Assembly: GCF_036669915.1 (NCBI RefSeq)
Contig: NC_089319.1
Location: 20,517,385-20,581,384 of the forward strand
Direction of reading: 5' to 3'
Source: Pocillopora verrucosa
Lineage: Eukaryota; Cnidaria; Anthozoa; Scleractinia; Pocilloporidae
DNA: 64,000 nucleotides
In this document: positions 38,701 through 55,549 of the stretch, piece after piece
How the letters are laid out: each line of letters begins with the position of its first letter
How positions within the stretch are numbered: the first letter of the stretch is position 1
The notes under the pieces: model-generated
What the model saw: the letters and a program-made list of their open reading frames with translations, nothing else
What the model was told of the DNA's origin: nothing
The model's database searches: none
Program-made: the position numbers and the translations under genes

Positions 38701-41700
38701 AGTTTCTGTAGCATAAGCGACTAGGAGTATGACTACTCCCCCTAGATAGGATGCCAATCCATAGCAAGGTTATCCCCTAGCATTTTATTAGGCTTCCCTG
38801 TCTTTTTGCTAGTACCAATTTATACTCCTTGGTGGAGAGATAGGCACCTTGAAAGTAAAGTATTTTGCCGAGGAACAGAGTGCAATGACCTGGCAGGTGT
38901 CGCACCTGAACCTCTTCACCCTGAGTCCAGAGAACTGACTGTAAGGCCACTGCATCTACCACATCCTTATAAAATAGCTAGGATAGCCTTATTTTGTTAT
39001 TATTAGAAGTGAAGTAAACTTTAAAAACAGTATTTTAATTATTATTAGCACTAAGTTATGTCATATCTGTTTTTGCATAGCATCATATGGAGGGTGAATG
39101 CAATGTTGTCAGGTCTGTTTCTCTGTCATCATATGAGCCAGCAAGTGGGAAAGATGTAACAGTACCAAAGATGAAGAGAGATGTTCTGGCAGTGTGTCTG
39201 GCGCATTTAATCGTCATCTGGACAGTTGTACCTGGATTGCAATGGAATGTACTTTACAAATGGAGTCTTCCTTCTGTAAGAGATCATCACTAAATTTTGT
39301 TATAATATTTTGTTTAGCCCATCAGGTGTGATGGCAGAGAGAGTCAGGAGGTTCAATATTTTTTGTGCACAAATGCACTTTCAGCTCATTAAAAGTACAA
39401 AAATGTGTGTGATAGACATATTTACCATGTGGTTTTATGGTGTGAATTTGCTATATCAGTTTCAATTTCCACATAGTGTTAAATTGTGTGTGAGTCTTGC
39501 CCCACTTTTGTTTCAAAAATAGTGGTTTTTGATGTGATGCTACAAATCTAATAGAAGAAAAAGAAATGTTAACTTTTGAATAAAGTTAAAATAATACACT
39601 TGTTGGACTTGTGATTGACACTTGAAATAATCTTGCAGAATGGAGGGGAGGAGTTTGTGAGTGTTCAAGTTGTGCCAAGGAATTCTCATGTTGTCCTTTT
39701 GGTTGGAGGGAATTTCTGTGGAGGCAATGGGAGGTAAGGAAAGGAGTCATTGGAAAGAAGCTTTTAATGAGCTAATGATGACAATTTAAAACTGGGCTGT
39801 GTGAAAGAGCATGTGCTTCAGCTTACGTTAGGAATATGGGGGCTCCATATTCCTGCATAAACCGTTTGGGATACCTATGGCAAAAGGTCATTATCCTTCA
39901 AGAATGGGCCCTGTTATAGCTACAACAGGGGATGAGACTCTTAAACTTTAGCTGTACCTACATGTGCCTATTTATGGGTCAAATTATGACATCACAATGT
40001 AGTCCACCATAGATCCTGATGCAGTGCACATGGAAATTAGGATGTTTTATTGTTTATAGAGAAAAGAAGCACTTGTCAGAGAATATTTTACTGTTTACTA
40101 CTGTACTCTTTTTGGCACAGACATATTGACACATGGAACAGTTTACTGTCATCAGTAGTTGAACTTGACTCAATTAATGCTTTTAAGAAAGCTCTTAAAT
40201 CAACATTTTTTAACTAGGCCTATAACTAAAAATTAAATTATTCTATGTATTAAACATTATTTAATTATAATTTTAAATAAAATTTTTATCTTAGATATGT
40301 CTTCTTTATTTAGATTTTATATTTATATAGATATATGCCTGTATGTAAAATGTTTCAGTATGTATATGTATATTGCATAGTATTAAATTTTTATATCTGG
40401 GGTATAGTTTGCAATGAGGATTAAGTTCCTCCCTTCCATAACCCTTTTTTAATAATAATATGTTGTACCGGTATGTTATTATTTAAATAAAGTTGTTATA
40501 TATATTCTGACTTTGGTCCGTTGCAGAATTCTCGGTTACTCAGATGATGGAGACTATTCTTTGGATTTGAAACATGATGACACTTTGTAAGTAATTTTAA
40601 TTTGTATGGGCTTGTAGGAGATATGTGTATGAAAGTAGAGGAAAACACTGCAAGCAAAGAAAGCAGGCAGATTTTCAAAAAGGGGAGTGTTTTGACCTCT
40701 CTCCAAAAACTGATGGGAATGTTGATCCTCAGAAATTTAGAACGTAGCCTCCCAAAGGTGTCACTCTGCATTTCATGGATCTAAGTTTATTTTCATCTGT
40801 TAAAAATTACAATTGTAAGCAACAAGTAATAATTCTGTGAGGTGAGGCGTAAATTTCCTTTTTAACAGCTCTCAATACCGAAATGCGTTTGAAATTTCAC
40901 CCCAACTGCTAACAGTAATAACTACTGGATTAAATTTTGAGAGGAAGATATGCTTATTTTTAAAGTAAGAATTTAAAGCAGTAGCACTTTCTTACTTTAG
41001 GAGTAACAAGCACAAATTTTCAACCATGTGCTTACTGTCTGATTCATGGGAAAAGGAGAATACCAAGGACATTGAGTTTGTTATCGCAAACAGGGAATCT
41101 TCTGAAGTAGCCTTGACAAAGTGGACGCTGGATAGTTTCTGCTTGTGAGTATTTGAACTATAAGAATTTTCACGACTGTGATAAATCTATTGAAAGACTG
41201 AAAGAACTTAAAATGATAAAAATGTAGAGCTCGAGTGTACAGTAGCGTAACAAACTGTTGTGGTCTGCTTGTGGTCTCCCCCTCCCATAAGCCCTAAGTA
41301 GCCTTCATTTGACTTGCTGGTTACACAAAATTTATAACACTCTTTTTATTTCTTTCGGAACGCGCAGAAACTTGTTTCTAATTTTGAAAATTGGAAGAAG
41401 GTTTCTGCGCGATTCAAACAGTCCGTGACTCGGACGACGAGATCAGTCTGTTTAAAGGAACTTTTAGTGCCGACAGAGTGCACCCACAAGAGCACGCGCA
41501 CCATGCGTTTATATGTCTATGACTGCACGACGGGGAGATGTTGATTTGGTAGACTTGGCCACTTTGCATCCCTTTGATGGACTCATCCTCCCCGTTTAAA
41601 ACCCGTGGAACATTTAAGCTTAGTGATGGGGTGTTTGAGATGTATTTACAACATAAGCTAGAACTTTCCGTCGTGAGTGAGAGCCGTCTACATTACTGCG

Positions 41701-44700
41701 TCACAGTGACTAAGATTGACGCCAGTTTGAGCGTGGCAGGTTCCTCTGTATCGAACAGTTAAACTATTGTTAGGATGGCCAGCTAGTAGTGAATAGCTCG
41801 GTTTTTCGGTAGGAAGATGCGGTTTGATCGTCTTTGTGAAGATACACTGTTTTCTTCAATCATGGCTAGGTGTCAAGTTTTAAAATAGTTAACAATAAAT
41901 TATTTGGTAGAGCTCTGAATTCAAGACAAAAAGTTCAAAATTATCGCGATCACTTTGCTCGAAATTCTTTGGCTTCAAGAGATTTTTTGACATTTTTCTT
42001 CCTTGTTCTATTTAGGGTAATTAAACAAAGGCAGTATTTTACTCCAATAATCACTGAAAGTGAATTTTCATCAATCCAAGCCGTTGAAGGTAGTCACTGC
42101 CTTCTCTTGGGCACAACGCAGGATCAACTCTTACTGTGGTGAGTTGTTGATATTGTCAGCATTATGATTATAACTACCGCCAATAAAATCATTGTTCTAA
42201 TCACTGGTCGTTAATGATTTTCGTATAAAGCTTCGTGAGGCGCAGTGAGAGGAATGAGATATCTCTACATCACATCTCATTTCTCAACTGGATCGTGGAG
42301 AAAAACTATTTCTCCATGGCTGAATTTTTCAAGAACTATACCCCTTTGTCCCTATATACTTTCTACTTTAACAATGGTACGATTATCTTTATCTTCTTTC
42401 TTTAGGAAGGCCAATTATACGGCACAAACGCTAGGAAAAGTTGTAGTTATTTTAATGACATTACGACAATTTTAAAATCAACTTACATTTTAATGCGCCT
42501 TTGCCTATCTTTGTCTTCGTAATCGGTATTGCTTGAAACATTGAATTTGTATACCATCTTCAGTTATAGAGCGACTTAACAAAATAGAATGAATTACAAG
42601 GTTACTTTAAAAATATTTTCCGGAAATTACACAGTAGTCTTAGTTTTTGCCGTTAGTAAAGTCGTCGTACACTTTGACATGAAACTGTCCTCATCATTCG
42701 CGTTACATCTCATGTGGTTTTTTCGTGGTAAACCTGTGGCTCCAGCTAGTTAGTATTTCGTTGTACATCTTTGGCAGCCCGAGGTTCCATCACGATTCAA
42801 GGAACCAATTCTACTCAGTACATCCCGGCAAAAGTTTGCTCTCTTACTCGGGACGTCATACCGGTCCATTCCAATTCTGATGGCAACCTGATCCCTGGCG
42901 TCGTCGATGCCACCCTTTTGAACGGTGTTGGCGGCAAACAGCAGCACCCAGCGTCGAATGCTGGCAGCGCGGCCGACGTAGCCATAGTGGATGTTTCCAG
43001 GTACATCGTAATTTACGCATCGTCCACACAGGGTCACAGTTTTTGGGCAACGATAGGGACATGATCGTCGTCTGAACGTCTGGGTGCATTTGTAATCCCA
43101 CGGCTTGCAGTTAGCGACAAGGTTGGCAAACTGAACGAGACACCTGGGCCAGAGAAAAGTGTTGTACCAGCTACGGCAACTTCTGATGGCTCTGTTGTTT
43201 CTGTTACGGTTCATTTGCCGTATAAGCCAAGATGTCACGTCCGGTCCACATCTGTCGCGAAAAAAAATTGATTTTCTTCAACATCTCTAGCTTTCGGCCT
43301 ACAGTTTATTTTAGTTGGTAAATGAGGGGAAGGTCCCTCACCTTAACATTAGAAATGCCTTAACTTTTCTGCGCGTAGCTGTTCGTCCTACCTTCGACTT
43401 CTTCGACGCCTTGGATCTTCGCTGACAACATCCGGATCCGTGTAAGGATCTTCCAACTCAGCGTAACTTCCATCCTTCTCAGGGAGGTCCAGCTCTTGAA
43501 TGCCTGGATCTTCCAACTCAACATAACTTCCATCCTCTCTCGGGAGGTCAAGCTCTTGAATGTCTGTAAATGTTAGAATTGTTAGCAGAACACGGCTTTC
43601 CCTTTTTGTTGGTAGCTTCTGAGCCCTGGAGCGATCAGAGCGACTAGGGCTTAAGATCGTACTGCCTTATTTCAAATTTGCTTCAAATGCTGTTTGCTGT
43701 GGTTTCTATCCAGTGCCACTGCGTTTTTGAAAATACTACATTTCCCGATCTGAAAAAGAAAAATCCTAGCTAAAATGTTTCCCTTTCAGGCCACCCACCC
43801 AACTATAGGTTCACAATTCTGATTCAAAACCAACTTCCAGAAGAAAAGGAAAGGCAGTCTGCTCTGGGGCTTTTTTTTATCCGACCAAATATCTCGCTTG
43901 TCTCTTTTCCAGTTTACTGGGCAAGAATCGGTGCATTTTCAGAAGGGTTATAGTTAAACATTCTTCAAACTATTGTCCGGAACTATTGTGATCTTCTACG
44001 TCTTTCATTACTAGTTGTTCTTTTCTCTAAATTTGTTTTTTTGTATTATTCATGTAAAGAAATATTTTCCATCAAAAGGGGATCTCCATTGCATGGTTTG
44101 TACCATCACCGACTTTATAGAGTGCGTCCGAAATAGGAATTACCTTCTTCCGTAAAACCGAGGCCATTTGTCACCAGAATGACAAACATCAGAGGCAGCA
44201 TAGATACCAAACGACTTTTCGACATCATTTTTGTGTTACTCTGTTTGTTAAGAAGAGCAAACACTTTAAGGAATGAACTGGAAATTTTTTTATATATGGT
44301 TTAAGTAAGTGCGTCCTTCGTCATCGTTGTCGCCTGTGTCAGTAATACTAATCAGTATTGCCTGAGCTGAAACGATCTGAAATCGCAATACTGTGACGGG
44401 CTTACTTTATCTATTCTAAGCCTTTCTTCTGAAGTGTAGTATTAATATTTATCTTTAAAGTGGTCTGTGGTGCTGCTTAACTAATTGCTTTTTAAGCACA
44501 AAATATATCCATGTATCAAGTAAGAGAGGTTGCTATCACGCCCTGCTACTAGCACTGGATTGGAAAATAAAAAAAAAACTGTTGAATGCAACTACAACAC
44601 AGATGATAAAAGTACATGTGGAACGCTGCTATTTTTTTTTCTTGTGGGGAGGGGGAGGGAGCGCATCGGAGAAACATGCAGAAAAGGTGTAAAGGTAGCC

Positions 44701-47700: not shown

Positions 47701-50169
47701 CTTTATTTGAACCCAAAAGTTAATAATAGTCATAAATTGTTAGAAAGATAGGGCAGCCACACTAAGGTGATTAATTGACGGATATTGGTGTCAGGTACTA
47801 CTCATATTTGCACACACAGATTCTTATCAGGCAATGAGGCAGACTTCTCAGTTGACTTTGTTATTTATTTAATGAACACTTGATGAAAGCACTGACTGAT
47901 ATGTCACTGACATATGCCAAACTTGGGAGACCTACTGTTGCCTACTGTCGCTTCCATACAGACCAGTGATGATCTTTTGCAATTTTCAGGAAATTCAATG
48001 TGGAGAAAGAAATTATTCTTGTTTGTTACTTGCTTTGAATCCAAAAACATCCCAAATGGTATGCCTGGAACGCTTTTTTCCAATAGATGGGTAAGTATCG
48101 TAGAGATGATCTTTAAACGAATGTGGAGTCTATGATTGATTTCTATGAAAACGAAACTAAGTAAACTTAATAAAAGTAATCACAACAGCCAGTCTGAACA
48201 AACAAGAATACCCCTTGGACTAGTTAGAAATCAAACTAAATACATGCAAACTGCTTAAAGCGCAGAATAAACGCAAGTACTAAGTTGAGTTTCGCATGAA
48301 TATTGATTGAGGGGGTGGTACGAGTTTTCTTAGCCTATGAAGGAATGAAAAGAACCAAGCGTACTTCAACCCTGGAGTAATTTCGACACTCAATTTAAAT
48401 TTGCTCTTAATTCGATTTTGCGACCCTTGACTTGACTCTGAAATAAAGTTGGTTCCATCCTAATGTTGTGTTCTTTCCGCGCTATGTGCTTAACTCTTGA
48501 TTGCCTTTTTTTTTTTTTGATGTGTTTGTCTTTTGGCTTCACGACTTGCAATCGAAAAGGCCAGTACAGTCGAGCCTGTATTAAGCGGCACCGTATTAAG
48601 TGGTCGGTTGTCAAAGTCCCGAATTTGTTTCCCCTTAATCATTGTGATTTCCACCACTATTTAGCTGTCACCTCTATTAAGTGGTCGTGATCACCCTTAA
48701 CTAAGTCCCAACGGCCAGTTTTCATATCGTTTTTCACTTGTATTGAACGGTCTCTTGAAGCGGAACCACTTAAACAAAGCTAAGAAAAATATTTCAAGTA
48801 ACTTTTAATCCATGTTTCTCTCCCGAAATCAATGTGAGTTGTATTTTGGAGTGAGTTTTTGTACATTGAGTGATCAATTATGGTATAAAATGCCGTTTTT
48901 ACTATTATTTTTTTTATAATAGCCCTATTCTGTGGAACCTTTATAAAGCGGTTAACCTGCCATTCTTCTTAGGTGACCGCCTAATGCAGGTTCAATAGTA
49001 ATCAGGTAATGTATGCATAATATTTTTTTAAGATCTAACTCGCCTATGTCAATTTTGATCTCATCAAGGTTCCACACGATAGGCACTAACGGTCAGTATA
49101 TCGCAGCAGGAGGTCAGGCCACAGGTGAGGTGAACCTGTGGAACATCACCAAAAGTCGAAGGCTTGCTTCGATGAAAGTGTTTCAAGGTATGAAAACCGT
49201 ACGAAATTCAGTGTGACAGCGTTCTTGTAAGTCTGAGAGGGGAAATACTACGGGTAGCGGTGTCACAAAGGGTCCAAATCCGTCAACGGATCTGGACCCC
49301 CCCCCTCCCTCACGGATTTGGACCCCCCCCCCGAAAAAACGTACGCTTTTAACTTTTCTACCCATCATGAATTTTTCATATGAAGTACTGCAATGTCTCT
49401 TTAAATTAAGAGTTGCAGCAGCACAGTTTTCAAACAATTAAACTTTTACTTCAGTTTAACTTATCGTCATGATCATCATCAATAGAGAGCTTTAGCAAAC
49501 CACGACGACGACAGGAACGAGGACGTGGCCAAACAAAAGATCTAATGGGCGGAGCAATAACTCAGTGCGAGCGATTAAATTTTTTTTAAATTTCTTAGAC
49601 GCTCTCTGCTAAAACAACGACGTGAAATCTCCCAAGCAGCACCAAAAACTTTGCTACATTATACAACATTTGTTGATCACACAAAGAATAGTTCAATAGG
49701 AAAATTGTGCTGGGGGGGGGGGGGGGCGGCATTTGAACTCAATTTTTGGCTTGAGGGGTGGGCAGGAATTTGAAGAAACCAACCCTCAAAAGTTTAAATG
49801 TCTGGGGGTGGATGTTGAAGCTTTGAAATGATCAACCCGTTATGCTGAACTTGAGGTTAGGCGCTGTAAGTGATGTAACATACATCCAGCCATTTGTGAA
49901 ATTATGAAAATAAAAATTTACATTTTAACATCTTCCTCTACGTTTGCCATCCTGACCCCTTAATGCCCCAAATAACAACCACAAAATCATCACCATGGTT
50001 GTCATCGGCTCCATCATTAGGGTCCATCATGAACATTTTTACAACAATGCTATATTTATCCTGCTTATATTTTCTAGATAAAGTGAGCAGTGTTGGATTT
50101 CATCGGGACTGGCCTGTTGTAGCCTTTGGTAGTGCCAGTGGCTGTGTTCATTTGTTCTCTATTGGTTGA
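35733..50169 (+). CDS. PALB2: PALB2, partner and localizer of BRCA2
   Basis: Fourteen exons: 35733-35768, 36045-36107, 36227-38410, 39081-39275, 39639-39733, 40527-40586, 40869-40964, 41001-41144, 42016-42138, 46627-46717, 47046-47084, 47990-48090, 49069-49187 and 50078-50169. All phases agree and give 1145 residues (human: 1186). PALB2 links BRCA1 to BRCA2 and RAD51 in homologous recombination. Visible: an N-terminal coiled coil (RLLELERKHAKALRKLKRAE), the region that binds BRCA1 in vertebrates; a long polar, probably disordered middle in exon 3; a conserved-looking SLPDKEFAKLKLAKIK near residue 418, like the human LPDEDFGPLKLEKV segment; and a C-terminal WD40 domain from about 765 (WNVLYKWSLPS, SHCLLLGTTQDQLLLWNHKT, GLLFLMMAG, ALNPKTSQM, GEVNLWNI, WPVVAFGSASGCVHLFS) ending like the vertebrate protein. 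Intron 9 (4.5 kb) hosts a nested gene. Exons 7 and 8 are weakly conserved and least certain. Confidence 0.86.
38640..38965 (-). mobile_element. tRNA-derived SINE
   Basis: On the minus strand it starts near 38965 with a tRNA-like head (GATGTGGTAGATGCAGTGGC; B-box-like GGTTCAGGTGCGACACC). Its body contains GGGGGAGTAGTCATACTCCT and AGTCGCTTATG, shared with the + strand copy at 60655-60960. PALB2 intron 3. Confidence 0.6.
40119..40500 (+). mobile_element. 3' end of a LINE retrotransposon
   Basis: An open end of a reverse-transcriptase frame, RHIDTWNSLLSSVVELDSIN then AFKKALKSTFFN and TAG at 40215-40217, is a typical C terminus of animal LINE ORF2. An AT-rich 3' UTR follows, ending in AAT/AATAAAG repeats. 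The tail stops about 25 bp before PALB2 exon 6. Confidence 0.6.
42750..44228 (-). CDS. secreted proprotein with polymorphic-toxin-44-like domain
   Basis: A nested gene on the strand opposite PALB2, inside intron 9. Exons 44228-44144, 43563-43392 and 43251-42750 join in phase to 252 residues. Seen in order: an N-terminal signal peptide (SRLVSMLPLMFVILVTNG); an acidic segment with a duplicated IQELDLPxxDGSYxELEDP unit; RRRRSRR, a strong candidate proprotein-convertase site; then a basic domain of about 165 residues with 12 cysteines. That domain has SWLIRQMNRNRNN, KPWDYK, NIHYGYVGRAASIRRW and DQVAIRIGMDRYD. I recall these blocks, in this order, in the bacterial polymorphic toxin type 44 family (Ntox44, predicted to act on nucleic acid). 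The even cysteine count suggests disulfides added for life outside the cell (inference). Function is unknown: antimicrobial defence, digestion or venom are all possible. The domain match is from memory; a chance resemblance is possible but unlikely over four blocks. Confidence 0.68.
44229..46217. other. PALB2 intron 9, right part
   Basis: No exon, RNA or repeat recognised. The region just right of 44228 is the likely promoter of the nested gene. Confidence 0.4.
46218..46290 (-). mobile_element. family C repeat fragment
   Basis: Reverse-oriented TATAGAGAACAGTATGGAGA and ATATACATACTGATGCGAGG. Confidence 0.5.
46785..46965 (+). mobile_element. family B MITE, degenerate
   Basis: Contains GATATGTAACTTCTCCGTAC and ends GGGAGTCAGAGGGTTA. 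The TTAA ends are mutated. PALB2 intron 10. Confidence 0.5.
47114..47374 (-). CDS. candidate terminal exon of unknown nested gene
   Basis: An 86-codon frame on the minus strand within PALB2 intron 11. Family not recognised. It looks protein-like (PPVAKNWQIKGFKTDRSVEV; ILYPFYQELKLQQLRQRLEE) and ends with a stop. On its 5' side a long pyrimidine tract ending in AG (TTTTTTTCTTCCCCAACCTC) could be a splice acceptor, in which case the exon starts at about PRVSLSRRHD. No partner exon was identified. It may instead be a decayed retrocopy. Confidence 0.3.
   Translation of the reverse strand: MSFFLPQPPKPRVSLSRRHDSSFGPPVAKNWQIKGFKTDRSVEVKVRKDETVSAYQSPFEFQNVRILYPFYQELKLQQLRQRLEEC
48567..48998. mobile_element. 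pogo/Tigger-type MITE
   Basis: Flanked by TA on both sides. The left end CAGTCGAGCCTGTATTAAGC mirrors the right end GCCTAATGCAGGTTCAATAG, with ATTAAGTGGTC repeats inside. The TA target and CAGT-type inverted end fit Tc1/mariner-pogo elements. PALB2 intron 12. Confidence 0.65.
49280..49335. repeat. C-rich short duplication
   Basis: GGATCTGGA and GGATTTGGA are each followed by a run of 10-11 C. A G-run of about 17 follows at about 49712-49728. Both are simple-sequence features in PALB2 intron 13. Confidence 0.6.
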
Positions 50170-50743: not shown

Positions 50744-51913
50744 TCACAAGTCACTTTGTTTACAATCCACATAGGGTACAACACCAAACTCTTGCCTTGG
50801 TCGAAACAGCTTTGTAGATTTCCACCAGTCCTCTAAATTATACCTTTGCAATAGCTGATAAAAATTCTTCCAGAAAATTATTTCTACATCTGTTATATCA
50901 ACAATTGGTCTGTCATACTCTGCAGCTTCTTTCCTGCTTGGTCTGCAATCTGCGGACCACGGCTTGGGGGGATGATAGCCGCCTTTGCCTCCAGCAAAGT
51001 GATAAGAGTTAAAAGGTCTGTAGGTGATGAGTCTGATGTTAAACGCGTAAGGAAGTGCTCTCCATTTACCAGCATCTGCATAATAATGCCAGAGCAAAAC
51101 TTGATCGTCGGGACAAGTATCTCTTTCGGTGGTTTCTCGCCATAAGTCCATGATTTCCTGATAGTATTTCGTGTCGGGTTTAAAAACAAGGAGACCAGCA
51201 TTAAAGCAAGGATCTACTACACCAGGTCGTGCGCATGGTACGGCGGCAAAGTCATCTGGAATATCGAACAGTTGATCGATATTCGTCATCAACATGTAAT
51301 CGGCGTCGACATAAATGATTTTAGAAAATTCAGTAAATTTCCACGCGTGAAATCGAGTGTGTGTTCCTATTATTCTGTAGCCTCGTGGTCTTCCGAACAA
51401 TCCTTCGTTTCTTTCAAAGCTCAATTTTGCATCCAGCCAGTCACAGTCCATTGCTTCGACTACTCGAGTTTCCCAACCAACTCGCTGAAGTGCCCTTTGG
51501 GCTTCTTTTGTCACTGTATCTGCAATCAGAGCAATCATGTTCTTGTGGCAAGAGAACGTTCGAATGGAGTGAGCCAGAACCAACGCAGGAACGACGAAAT
51601 TATCGTTTACCACAATTGTTAGCCATGTGACATCGCTTCTTGATTGTACATTTTCTTTGCACCATTCTTGCCCAAAACGGCTTTCAATCTGGTACGTTCT
51701 CCATTCCTTACGAGCAAGCTGTAATTCATTGTCCATAATTCTTTGCTCATAGCTCATAGCTTCTGAAATAATAATCTTAGTGTATCTGAAGAAATACGAA
51801 AGCAGTATTGGTCTCCACAGAAAGATGAAAATCACCACCGCGATCGAAATCAAGACTGTCAATCCGTAAAGACGCCGATGTGATCCGCCATGTGTTTTTT
51901 TTGTGTCCTTCAT
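50744..51913 (-). CDS. GT8-family glycosyltransferase, copy 1
   Basis: Intronless, 389 residues from Met 51913; a non-ATG codon two residues upstream is less likely. It is a type II Golgi-type protein: a short basic cytoplasmic tail, one membrane segment (about 15-36), a stem, then the GT8 domain. The domain starts TWLTIVVNDNFVVPALVLAH. YVDADYM (DxD at 203-205) binds metal and UDP-sugar. CFNAGLLVFKPD and CPDDQVLLWHYY follow, as in glycogenin- and PGSIP/GUX-like enzymes. The sugar and acceptor cannot be told. Its nearest relative is the neighbouring copy 2, same strand, with the same length and motif spacing. Confidence 0.85.
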   Translation of the reverse strand: MKDTKKTHGGSHRRLYGLTVLISIAVVIFIFLWRPILLSYFFRYTKIIISEAMSYEQRIMDNELQLARKEWRTYQIESRFGQEWCKENVQSRSDVTWLTIVVNDNFVVPALVLAHSIRTFSCHKNMIALIADTVTKEAQRALQRVGWETRVVEAMDCDWLDAKLSFERNEGLFGRPRGYRIIGTHTRFHAWKFTEFSKIIYVDADYMLMTNIDQLFDIPDDFAAVPCARPGVVDPCFNAGLLVFKPDTKYYQEIMDLWRETTERDTCPDDQVLLWHYYADAGKWRALPYAFNIRLITYRPFNSYHFAGGKGGYHPPKPWSADCRPSRKEAAEYDRPIVDITDVEIIFWKNFYQLLQRYNLEDWWKSTKLFRPRQEFGVVPYVDCKQSDL

Positions 51914-53341
51914 AGTCAAGCTACTAATAATACTACAGGTTGTTTGTGGTTAGAAGACCTGTGGTTGCGAATCGCCGGGCTGGACGAAAATTCCAATTAT
52001 AATGCATATACTACATGTTAGTCGCCTTGCTGATAGACTATCAGTCGATTTTATTCCTTGTGTGACAGGTTATATGAAAACAGGATCTGTGGGCCACGTA
52101 ATCTCTCAGATGTGCAACCATTCGTTTGGGTAATTCGATATGTTTTGAACTTATTGATGGTACGGCAGGAGAAATTCGTGAATTACTTAGATATTAACTT
52201 TTTTTTAGCTTCTTGGAAAATAGAAACACCTTTAGAAGAGCAAATATGCGTTCTTCAAAATTAAGAGACTTAAAACAAAAAATTTCGTTTCTTATCCCAA
52301 GCGATTATCCCACTGTGTGACAGATGGCGAAGCTTCCTGCCTCGTGACTTAAATATTTAATCAAAACAAGCATTGTGTAGCCCTATTCAGGTTACCAGTT
52401 TCAATTTTTCTATCAAGTCTATTTTGCCCACTGAATACAAAATAATTAGAAACGTAGGAAAATAGCGATACAATATTTCTTACAGTGGAAATTTTGCTTT
52501 AAAAGGAAGTAAGCTAGTAATTGTTTGCAATCCCGCGGAGTTGGTAAACGCCTCAATAGATTGTAGAGCTTTTGAAATATCACAGGCCAGGGAAAGCCAC
52601 AGTTCTCATTAATTAGCGCGGAAAGATGTAAACATTTAACGAAAGCTCAAGGTATTTCAATTTTCTTCTGTACGGGTAGCCCGTGCTCGTTGCTGACATA
52701 AGTACATCTGCTGCATTTCGCAAAAGCAGAATTATTTATTAAAATTGTTCGAACGAGACGGTTGCATGTAGAAACCCAAAATATCCGTGATTTCACTCTA
52801 AAAGTTAGCAGACTGCTTCATTCGAACGTTTTTTCCTATCGCGGCTGGATAGGTTGCAAGGTCCTCTTCGAAAAAAAAAAAGGTGGGTGAGCTAAAAACC
52901 GCCAAATCGCTTCGAATCGACCCAACAGTCACACCGGAGCCAAAGAAACGCTAGACTGAAGTAAAGTCAGCTATCTTTATAGTTAAATCATCAATATTTG
53001 TCACCGTTTCCGCCTATACAATTCTTTTATAGTATATATGTGGTCGTATATCGAATTTGGACTACCTGTGGCTCCAACAACTGAGATCTCGTTGGACCCG
53101 CGAGCAGGAAGGAAGTGTTTTTTACTAGCGGCACTTTAGTTTTTCCTGTCGTTTTGAAGACGGTGAAAACAATCACCAAGACTTGTTTACTGAATTTATG
53201 CTGCAGTTCTTTGGTGGAATAATTCGGCTACATATTTAATGCATTGATGCGAACTGAGTCTGTTTGGCTAAGATGGCTAGATTTTTCCTTCTGTTGAACC
53301 ATGCAAACACACGTAAGGTGTGGACTGAATCAGCACTGAAC
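51914..53341. other. spacer between the two GT8 genes
   Basis: Contains the promoter of copy 1. No exon or repeat recognised; A-rich tract near 52870. Confidence 0.4.
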
Positions 53342-53995: not shown

Positions 53996-55189
53996 TTAAG
54001 GGAGCTCAGTCCACAAAGTGAAATTGGTTCCCTGGCTGCCAACCTTGTTACAGGCAGCAAATGGCTCAGCATGAAACTCCTGATCTGGCCGAAACCATTT
54101 CGTGGATCTCCACCAGTTCTCTAAATCGTACCTCCTTAGCAATTCGTAAAACTTCTTCCAAAAAACTAATATCATGTCATCGGTTACTAATATTGGTCTG
54201 TCGTAATCTTCAGCCTCTTTCCTACTTGGTCTGCACTTTGCCGACCATGGCTTAGGCGGACTACAGCAGGCAAAATGGAATGAATTTAGGGGCCTGTAAA
54301 TGTTGCGTCTGATGTTGAATGCGTAAGGAAGCCTTTTCCAATTGCCCTCAGCGACGTAATAATACCATAGCAGAACCTGATCATTTGGACAAGTTCCTTG
54401 TCTAGTCATTTTCCACAACAAACTCAGGATATCTTGGTACTGTTGCACGTCTGGTCTGAACACCATGAGACCTGCATTGAAACATGGATCCACTACACCC
54501 GGTCTGGAGCAAGGTGCAGCAGCAAAGTCACCTGGAATATCAAACAATTGATCGATATTCGTCATCAACATGTAATCAGCATCGACATAAATGATTTTGG
54601 AAAACTCGGTGTAGTTCCAAGCGTGGAATCGAGTATGTGTACCCTTAATTCCTGCCCCTCCAGTAAATGCACGATAGTCAATCGCGTTATATTTGGTCTC
54701 AAGCCAATCACAGTCCATTGCCTCGACTATGCGGGTGTCCCAGCCAATTTTCTGAAGAGCCCTATGTGTCTCCGTGGACAACGTGTCCGAAATCAAGGCT
54801 ACCATATTCCTCTGGCAAGAAAATGTTTGGATGGAGAGACCAAGCACCAGTGCAGGAATAGCAAATTCGTCGTTGACGACAATTGTAAGCCATGTTACAT
54901 TGTTTTTTCTCGATGTAAAATTTTCTTTGCACCATTCTTGGCCAAAGCGGCTTTCAATCTGATACATTCTCCATTCCTTGAGAGCAAGTTGAAGCTCATT
55001 TTCAAGAAACCTTTCCTCATCACTCATAACATCCTTCAAGACATAGTTCGCTATTTTAAGGTAATAAGGAGGCGGAATTGGTCCCCACGCCAAAAGAAGA
55101 CCCACCACGATTATCACGCTCAATGAAATGAGTATGCCGTAATAGGACTTTCGACAGGCCCCCTTTTTCGTTTCTGGTAAACCGTCCAT
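53996..55189 (-). CDS. GT8-family glycosyltransferase, copy 2
   Basis: Intronless, 397 residues. Same plan as copy 1: basic tail, membrane segment (about 17-35), shared stem motif YQIESRFGQEWCKEN, GT8 domain with YVDADYM (DxD at 203-205), GDFAAAPCSRPGVVDPCFNA and CPNDQVLLWYYY. The C terminus is longer and ends in a different tail. By eye the two copies agree at well over half of positions, so they are an old tandem duplication rather than a recent one. Confidence 0.86.
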   Translation of the reverse strand: MDGLPETKKGACRKSYYGILISLSVIIVVGLLLAWGPIPPPYYLKIANYVLKDVMSDEERFLENELQLALKEWRMYQIESRFGQEWCKENFTSRKNNVTWLTIVVNDEFAIPALVLGLSIQTFSCQRNMVALISDTLSTETHRALQKIGWDTRIVEAMDCDWLETKYNAIDYRAFTGGAGIKGTHTRFHAWNYTEFSKIIYVDADYMLMTNIDQLFDIPGDFAAAPCSRPGVVDPCFNAGLMVFRPDVQQYQDILSLLWKMTRQGTCPNDQVLLWYYYVAEGNWKRLPYAFNIRRNIYRPLNSFHFACCSPPKPWSAKCRPSRKEAEDYDRPILVTDDMILVFWKKFYELLRRYDLENWWRSTKWFRPDQEFHAEPFAACNKVGSQGTNFTLWTELP

Positions 55190-55549
55190 TACGACGGAGC
55201 TAGACTCTTCTAGCTTAAAAATTTTTGTTTGCAGGTTTACAACATTTGCACATCAAGTCTTTATATTGAGTGACATGGCGGATATTTAAAATTCATTTTG
55301 AAACAACAGACCTCCAGGGAAAAAAAATACGAAAACATTTGTCACTAAGTATGGAAATTAGGCTTTTGAACTGAAAAAGCCTTGTGGTCATGAATCTTAC
55401 CGATGTGATGACGAGTTAAATCTCTCTTAGGGTGTGTTAAGGTATCTTTTAAAATTTAGTCCGTTGAGCAAATTTAACGATCATGTGAAACGAGCTTTAT
55501 TTTAATCAGGGTAATAAATAATTGCTCCATGCTTAGCATGCGTATATCG

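Follow-up and report, generated by a model that had tools for sequence, protein, structure and literature searches.

A coral Ntox44 gene whose closest bacterial relatives mostly look like eCIS cargo proteins

Transfer of the toxin domain Ntox44 to stony corals has been known since 2021, from a paper that we take to be that of Levy et al., and the gene described here, from a 64,000-nucleotide stretch of the Pocillopora verrucosa genome (the whole of the DNA analysed, hereafter the window), is a further coral example. The published account places Ntox44 of bacterial origin in three stony corals and gives these genes two introns in common, a signal peptide and a conserved genomic neighbourhood (PMC8162421, 2021). 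A relative from Stylophora, given as XP_022782305.1 in a review that repeats the coral transfer (PMC8913943), is reported to be expressed in the calicoblasts of primary polyps (PMC8162421; PMC8913943), alongside acid-rich secreted proteins (PMC8162421). In the catalogue of polymorphic toxins, the Ntox44 entries list a predicted metal-independent RNase toxin with the motifs DxK, GNxxxG and DxxxD and no immunity protein, delivered by T2SS, T6SS and T7SS, with PVC/eCIS not among the routes given, and distributed over bacteria and microsporidia, with no metazoa (PMC3482391). DUF4157, for its part, has been described as an eCIS core domain fused to toxins (PMC8213781). The eCIS are extracellular contractile injection systems, phage-tail-like machines of bacteria, one of which reportedly sets off the metamorphosis of a marine tubeworm (PMC6748791).

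Judged by description, the window gene and the scleractinian genes have the same Ntox44 domain, two introns, a signal peptide and a conserved neighbourhood (PMC8162421; PMC8913943): the window gene has two introns and a secretion leader, and its surroundings are common to Oculina. An earlier note on this DNA, made from the letters alone, had singled out a bacterial domain in a spliced animal gene; such a gene is real, but genes of this kind were already on record in 2021 (PMC8162421). The passages on coral genes in PMC8162421 and PMC8913943 mention no acidic pro-segment, cleavage site, cysteine pattern or eCIS relatives. Among papers using the word Ntox44, corals appear by title only in those two (a search that left most subscription journals and all supplements outside), none of the titles among the matches listed joins coral Ntox44 to eCIS, and PMC8213781 and PMC11297309 do not name toxin 44, PF15607 or corals in their main text. 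The features that we did not find in the literature examined are the kinship with eCIS cargo, the eight shared cysteines, and the cationic domain with a charge-matched pro-segment.

Gene structure and genomic neighbourhood

The gene lies on the minus strand. Among 108 combinations of nearby junctions, a single one has GT-AG borders at both introns together with an in-frame length, and it is open over 252 amino acids. Coding exon 1 (44144..44228) holds, by splice frame and hydrophobicity, a signal-peptide-like start, whose hydrophobic core (residues 8-19) averages 2.73 in hydrophobicity over its 12 residues, and the first residues of the pro-segment. After a GT-AG intron (43564..44143, placed by splice frame) comes exon 2 (43392..43563), which carries the acidic pro-segment (charge -18 over residues 25-77 of the precursor), a 60-bp unit duplicated in tandem (49/60 bases identical between the copies) and, at its end, the basic cluster RRRRSRR; splice frame and charge support this assignment. 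Intron 2, likewise GT-AG and set by the frame (43252..43391), falls where the pro-segment gives way to the toxin domain, and exon 3 (42750..43251), which starts one base ahead of the codon for the domain's first cysteine, encodes the mature Ntox44 domain (codons 43250-42753, 166 amino acids, net charge +19) and the stop codon. A TATATAA box on the same strand (44290..44296), recovered by a pattern scan as a match to consensus only, stands 62-68 bases 5' of the start codon.

The earlier note had read this locus as three in-phase exons encoding a signal peptide, a twice-repeated acidic unit, RRRRSRR and a bacterial-toxin-like domain with 12 cysteines. The sequence bears out these elements, the signal peptide as a signal-peptide-like start, and supports animal splicing, a secretion leader, an acidic pro-segment and a basic cleavage motif at the domain border. 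The domain assignment, which also draws on charge and signature residues, is confirmed by the profile search against exon 3 (PF15607, E 1.3e-12, 48.5 bits, curated cut-off 24); the whole precursor scores 47 bits against the same cut-off and matches no other Pfam family at E<=1. The motifs of the family are present as D52-Y-K54, G85-N-I-H-Y-G90 and D116-x3-D120 (domain numbering), and eCIS_core is absent from both the window precursor and its Oculina relative P0003, in each of which Pfam gives Ntox44 only.

Cnidarian homologues, which the earlier note had proposed to look for, were found in Oculina patagonica. The window gene is not a chance open reading frame, because the Oculina gene model P0003 matches it at full length (61% identity over 100% of the 252 amino acids) and three further uninterrupted precursor ORFs exist on short contigs (P0007, 249 aa, longest contig 2,268 b; P0026, 238 aa, 2,217 b; P0004, 217 aa, 1,545 b), which look like transcripts, to judge from their length. 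A search with the precursor returned 45 homologues, 40 of them coral-like by sequence (two named, both Oculina) and P0038, P0042, P0044 and P0045 bacterial-looking. The remaining one, P0037 (231 aa), is of the cysteine type of Ntox44, has a cysteine-rich N-terminus of its own and resembles neither the coral nor the eCIS proteins. Between the window protein and four relatives the mature domain is 60-77% identical and the pre-pro part 19-33%, and several unspliced relatives diverge right before CGPD, which would fit an intron at the same border in these relatives. The picture is one of a bacterial domain on its own exon behind an animal leader.

The 353-Mb, 52-contig assembly contains at least one Ntox44 copy, a single locus having been found; a protein search of the assembly gave one extra match at chance level (E 0.57). 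This locus sits on a 23.8-Mb contig among animal genes, one of which, an ERA-like GTPase gene, lies at 17.7-18.7 kb of the same window; the nearest named kin of its protein are Oculina ACROYT_G037803 (66%), Montipora capricornis (60%) and Nematostella vectensis (55%). Oculina patagonica has two Ntox44 genes, ACROYT_G037812 and G037815, and the contig records for these and for the ERA gene are both 33,484,490 b long; the ERA GTPase-Ntox44 neighbourhood is common to the window and Oculina. No Ntox44 match carries the name Montipora or Nematostella, although both are in the database, a weak negative given that most matches are nameless.

On the plus strand, seven exons (39081-39275, 39639-39733, 40527-40586, 41001-41144, 42016-42138, 49069-49187 and 50078-50169) join with GT/AG borders into one open frame that runs to a stop. 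The joined product has matches to WD40 families of Pfam, none of which reaches its curated cut-off, and to WD40 structures, the best at E 7.8e-11; its best-scoring stretches, residues 209-274, correspond to the last two exons; the first five (39081-42138), searched alone, gave no family match and no WD40. The toxin gene probably lies antisense within the 6,930-base intron of this WD40 gene, between the exon at 42016..42138, placed by splice borders and frame only, and the WD40-like exon at 49069..49187, the link across the intron coming from splice borders and frame only. The earlier note had called this gene PALB2, a name that we could not confirm: neither Pfam nor the best 60 of 95 PDB rows gave a PALB2 match.

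The toxin domain and its bacterial relatives

The closest bacterial relatives mostly look like eCIS-type cargo proteins. A search with the Calothrix domain gave 35 proteins, 30 of which carry eCIS_core in precomputed annotation; the five without it are P0042, P0073 and P0078, which are short (318-353 aa), P0047 (472 aa), in which Pfam finds no eCIS_core either, and P0077, which has a different N-terminus. The database name of P0065 already unites DUF4157 and Bacterial toxin 44. Two of the relatives, P0038 and P0042, have the CGPD start and the cysteines in common with the coral domain and are 50% and 49% identical to the window in the alignment (44% and 41% by BLASTP), the Calothrix domain being 51% identical in the same alignment. 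As a separate observation, P0056 (751 aa) has a lytic transglycosylase domain (PF01464) besides its eCIS_core and Ntox44 domains.

Genomes with any match to query A1 at E<=1e-3 numbered 5/386, 3/288 and 7/301 in three bacterial phyla, the strongest match being that of Calothrix (E 5.8e-61) and the next (E 1.3e-19) a divergent cysteine-type domain. The genome scan yielded five loci. The Calothrix locus (L001, 8915-10531) encodes a 538-aa protein with eCIS_core and Ntox44 and an OmpA-like stretch between them (recognized by eye, plus Pfam in the relatives P0061 and P0068); its domain is of the cysteine-rich type over its full length and 56% identical to that of P0038. Its operon neighbours include a further two eCIS_core proteins, Pvc16_N, an AAA ATPase, phage base V and gp25, together with a CIS tube match below cut-off; this operon context was seen for one bacterial relative only, that of Calothrix. 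Of the other four loci, L003 is a fragment and the rest are 26-31% identical. L003 (6725-6817 of a Verrucomicrobia contig) is apparently a degenerate cysteine-type Ntox44 piece of ~29 codons with one internal stop, directly preceding two long genes with eCIS-core-like N-termini (by eye). L018, L019 and L021, from two genomes of the same phylum set, are very divergent cysteine-bearing Ntox44-like domains, the last two with CGPD, and could represent earlier offshoots of the cysteine type. Distant Ntox44 matches came from 14 Paenibacillus phage records (33.8%) and one plasmid (27.6%).

Compared with the eCIS-associated toxins, whose eCIS_core/DUF4157 is N-terminal (PMC8213781), the coral protein has a homologous C-terminal domain, ~50% identical and with eight cysteines in common, but it is devoid of eCIS_core and of the OmpA-like part and has instead a secretion leader, a pro-segment and four additional cysteines. 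The Ntox44 domains of polymorphic toxins (listed in PMC3482391), exemplified by the PAAR-Ntox44 protein P0044, have the same DxK, GNxxxG and DxxxD motifs and match the same PF15607, but they are modules of multidomain bacterial toxins, and P0044 is free of the cysteines. Sequence searches of the PDB with the coral domain gave nothing at E<=1 (three chance-level rows in a second search), and with P0044 the PAAR part, and not the Ntox44 domain, found a convincing match.

For the comparison of cysteines and charge and for the tree we used 30 coral-type and 36 bacterial-side rows, having dropped P0001 and P0002 as near-identical to the window and P0019, P0032, P0034, P0035, P0036, P0039, P0040, P0041 and P0043 as truncated, frame-broken or odd; P0045, missed by the motif pattern, is not in the cysteine table. 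The cysteine and charge figures count related rows as separate ones. Six cysteines (C64, C68, C75, C78, C141 and C162) are present in 66/66 rows. C159 is found in 29/30 coral-type and 36/36 bacterial-side rows, and C1 in 13/13 coral-type rows that reach the site (17 are truncated there) and in 36/36 on the bacterial side. C25 and C37, in contrast, occur in 30/30 coral-type rows versus 2/36 bacterial-side ones (P0078 and P0079), and C48 and C55 go together: 15 coral-type rows have both, 15 have neither, and none of the 30 kept has only one. Some dropped rows break this pattern by eye: P0034 and P0036 have C55 without C48, P0019 and P0032 have tyrosine at C37, and arginine replaces C1 in P0019; P0035, the second gene model from Oculina, is without the CGPD start and stands outside the five precursors compared below. 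To judge from these rows, eight of the 12 cysteines were brought in by the bacterial domain, and two pairs are almost exclusive to the coral side. That the cysteines are wholly an animal addition was considered and rejected, eight of the 12 being common to the bacterial relatives. The central C-x3-C-x6-C-x2-C cysteines could hold zinc instead of forming disulfides. Eleven signature residues (W51, D52, K54, D82, G85, N86, H88, G90, G93, D116 and G127) are intact in 30/30 coral-type and 36/36 bacterial-side rows, D117 in 29/30 and 34/36, and D120 in 29/30 and 36/36.

Charge balance and processing of the precursor

Over a comparable segment, the domain has a median net charge of +14.5 in the coral-type rows (5 to 22, n=30) versus +1 on the bacterial side (-9 to 12, n=36), with a rank-test p of 1e-11 that is not a fair probability, since the rows are kin. 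The charges of pro-segment and mature part are -18/+19 in the window, -16/+20 in P0003, -11/+15 in P0007 and -12/+12 in P0026 (-6/+15 in P0004, which is N-terminally short); the four precursors nearly cancel their charges despite a fast-evolving pro-segment, with pre-pro parts only 19-33% identical to that of the window. The earlier note had suggested that the acidic pro-segment may mask the basic domain: the balance recurs in the relatives, and the masking itself is something we infer from it. Defensins and eosinophil major basic protein are charge-balanced animal proproteins of the same kind, in which an acidic pro-segment offsets a basic mature part, but built on unrelated domains.

An R-x-K/R-R motif lies at CGPD or within 4 residues of it in 4/5 precursors: RSRR directly abuts CGPD in the window, and in P0003, P0004 and P0026 the motif stands four residues ahead. 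At the corresponding border P0007 has no strict furin site, KR pairs only.

Proposed function, origin and alternatives

The explanation that we favour, with moderate confidence and from sequence, is that the gene encodes a captured eCIS-type cysteine-rich toxin module that would work as a charge-masked, convertase-activated, secreted antimicrobial RNase. The bacterial module would have been acquired on a single exon that follows an animal secretion leader, whose signal peptide, to judge from the window and its relatives, would bring the protein into the ER, and the cysteines would form disulfides or bind metal in the C-x3-C-x6-C-x2-C knuckle. The pro-segment, at -18, would neutralize the +19 of the domain and keep it quiet inside the cell, until a furin-type convertase cut at the basic cluster seen at the domain border. 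The released basic enzyme could then bind anionic microbial surfaces and degrade RNA, as the family's listing as a predicted metal-independent RNase suggests, and the published calicoblast expression in Stylophora would have it protect or clear the surface where skeleton is laid down. An immunity protein would be unneeded because the enzyme would never meet coral cytosolic RNA. The intact signature and a mature domain far better conserved than the pre-pro part fit a kept active site.

Those two properties also argue against a domain that no longer works as an enzyme and has become a cationic, cysteine-rich part of the skeletal organic matrix or of mucus, partnered by the acidic segment. Expression in calicoblasts alongside acid-rich secreted proteins (reported for Stylophora in PMC8162421) and the cationic shift of the coral-type domains speak for such a matrix role, which we nevertheless judge unlikely in view of the eleven signature residues preserved in 30/30 coral-type rows and the much stronger conservation of the mature domain.

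Returning to the enzyme, we can tentatively picture an eCIS payload rebuilt as a charge-masked, convertase-activated secreted zymogen of innate defence that is used at settlement, the cationization and the added cysteine pairs possibly being adaptations to extracellular delivery. The eCIS parentage, if true, would give the published transfer a concrete source in toxins made for machine injection, and the charge-matched pro-segment offers a simple model of how an animal may harbour a toxin of bacterial origin and need no immunity protein. Expression at the settlement stage, as reported for Stylophora, would link the gene to the way corals handle microbes at attachment.

A tree with bacterial homologues, as the earlier note had proposed, separates the coral-type from the bacterial-side rows by a 100/99 branch when distant outgroups are left out, with mean paths larger on the bacterial side (1.20) than in corals (0.71). 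Once distant outgroups are included, the root becomes unstable and the coral rows do not form one clade (3 changes; 2 in another tree), a single coral clade not being rejected in the distant-outgroup tree (p-AU 0.187). That the transfer ran from bacteria to coral is concluded from where Ntox44 occurs and from PMC8162421, without the help of a rooted tree. By path, the bacterial-side row nearest the window is P0077, which is without eCIS_core, and therefore the donor may not be an eCIS gene. Some third group, such as a protist or another bacterium, might also have passed the domain to both corals and eCIS bacteria, or corals might have passed it to bacteria. The unsettled root and the two cysteine-type proteins without eCIS_core, P0077 and P0037, lend this route some support; we hold it to be rather improbable, considering that the Ntox44 entries of PMC3482391 list bacteria, plus microsporidia, that the spread is larger on the bacterial side, and that the coral rows occupy one side of the 100/99 branch in the tree without outgroups.

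Secreted, cysteine-rich, basic proteins made in precursor form are common among venom proteins, and the coral protein has all of these properties. The option of a venom or digestive enzyme from nematocytes or gland cells, raised in the earlier note, nevertheless found no supporting evidence and seems very improbable: calicoblasts of primary polyps are where the Stylophora relative is reported to be expressed, and the accounts of its expression in PMC8162421 and PMC8913943 leave nematocytes unmentioned. Contamination, mis-assembly or a dead gene, for which the G+C of exon 3 might speak (0.512 against 0.377 for the window, with another single-exon ORF here at 0.477), is hardly credible for a gene with introns and animal neighbours on a 23.8-Mb contig and with Oculina relatives in the same neighbourhood. 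Elsewhere in the window, two adjacent single-exon-looking genes of glycosyltransferase family 8 (50747-51949 and 53999-55252, minus strand, PF01501 in both) have starts that are similar by eye and are probably a tandem duplication.
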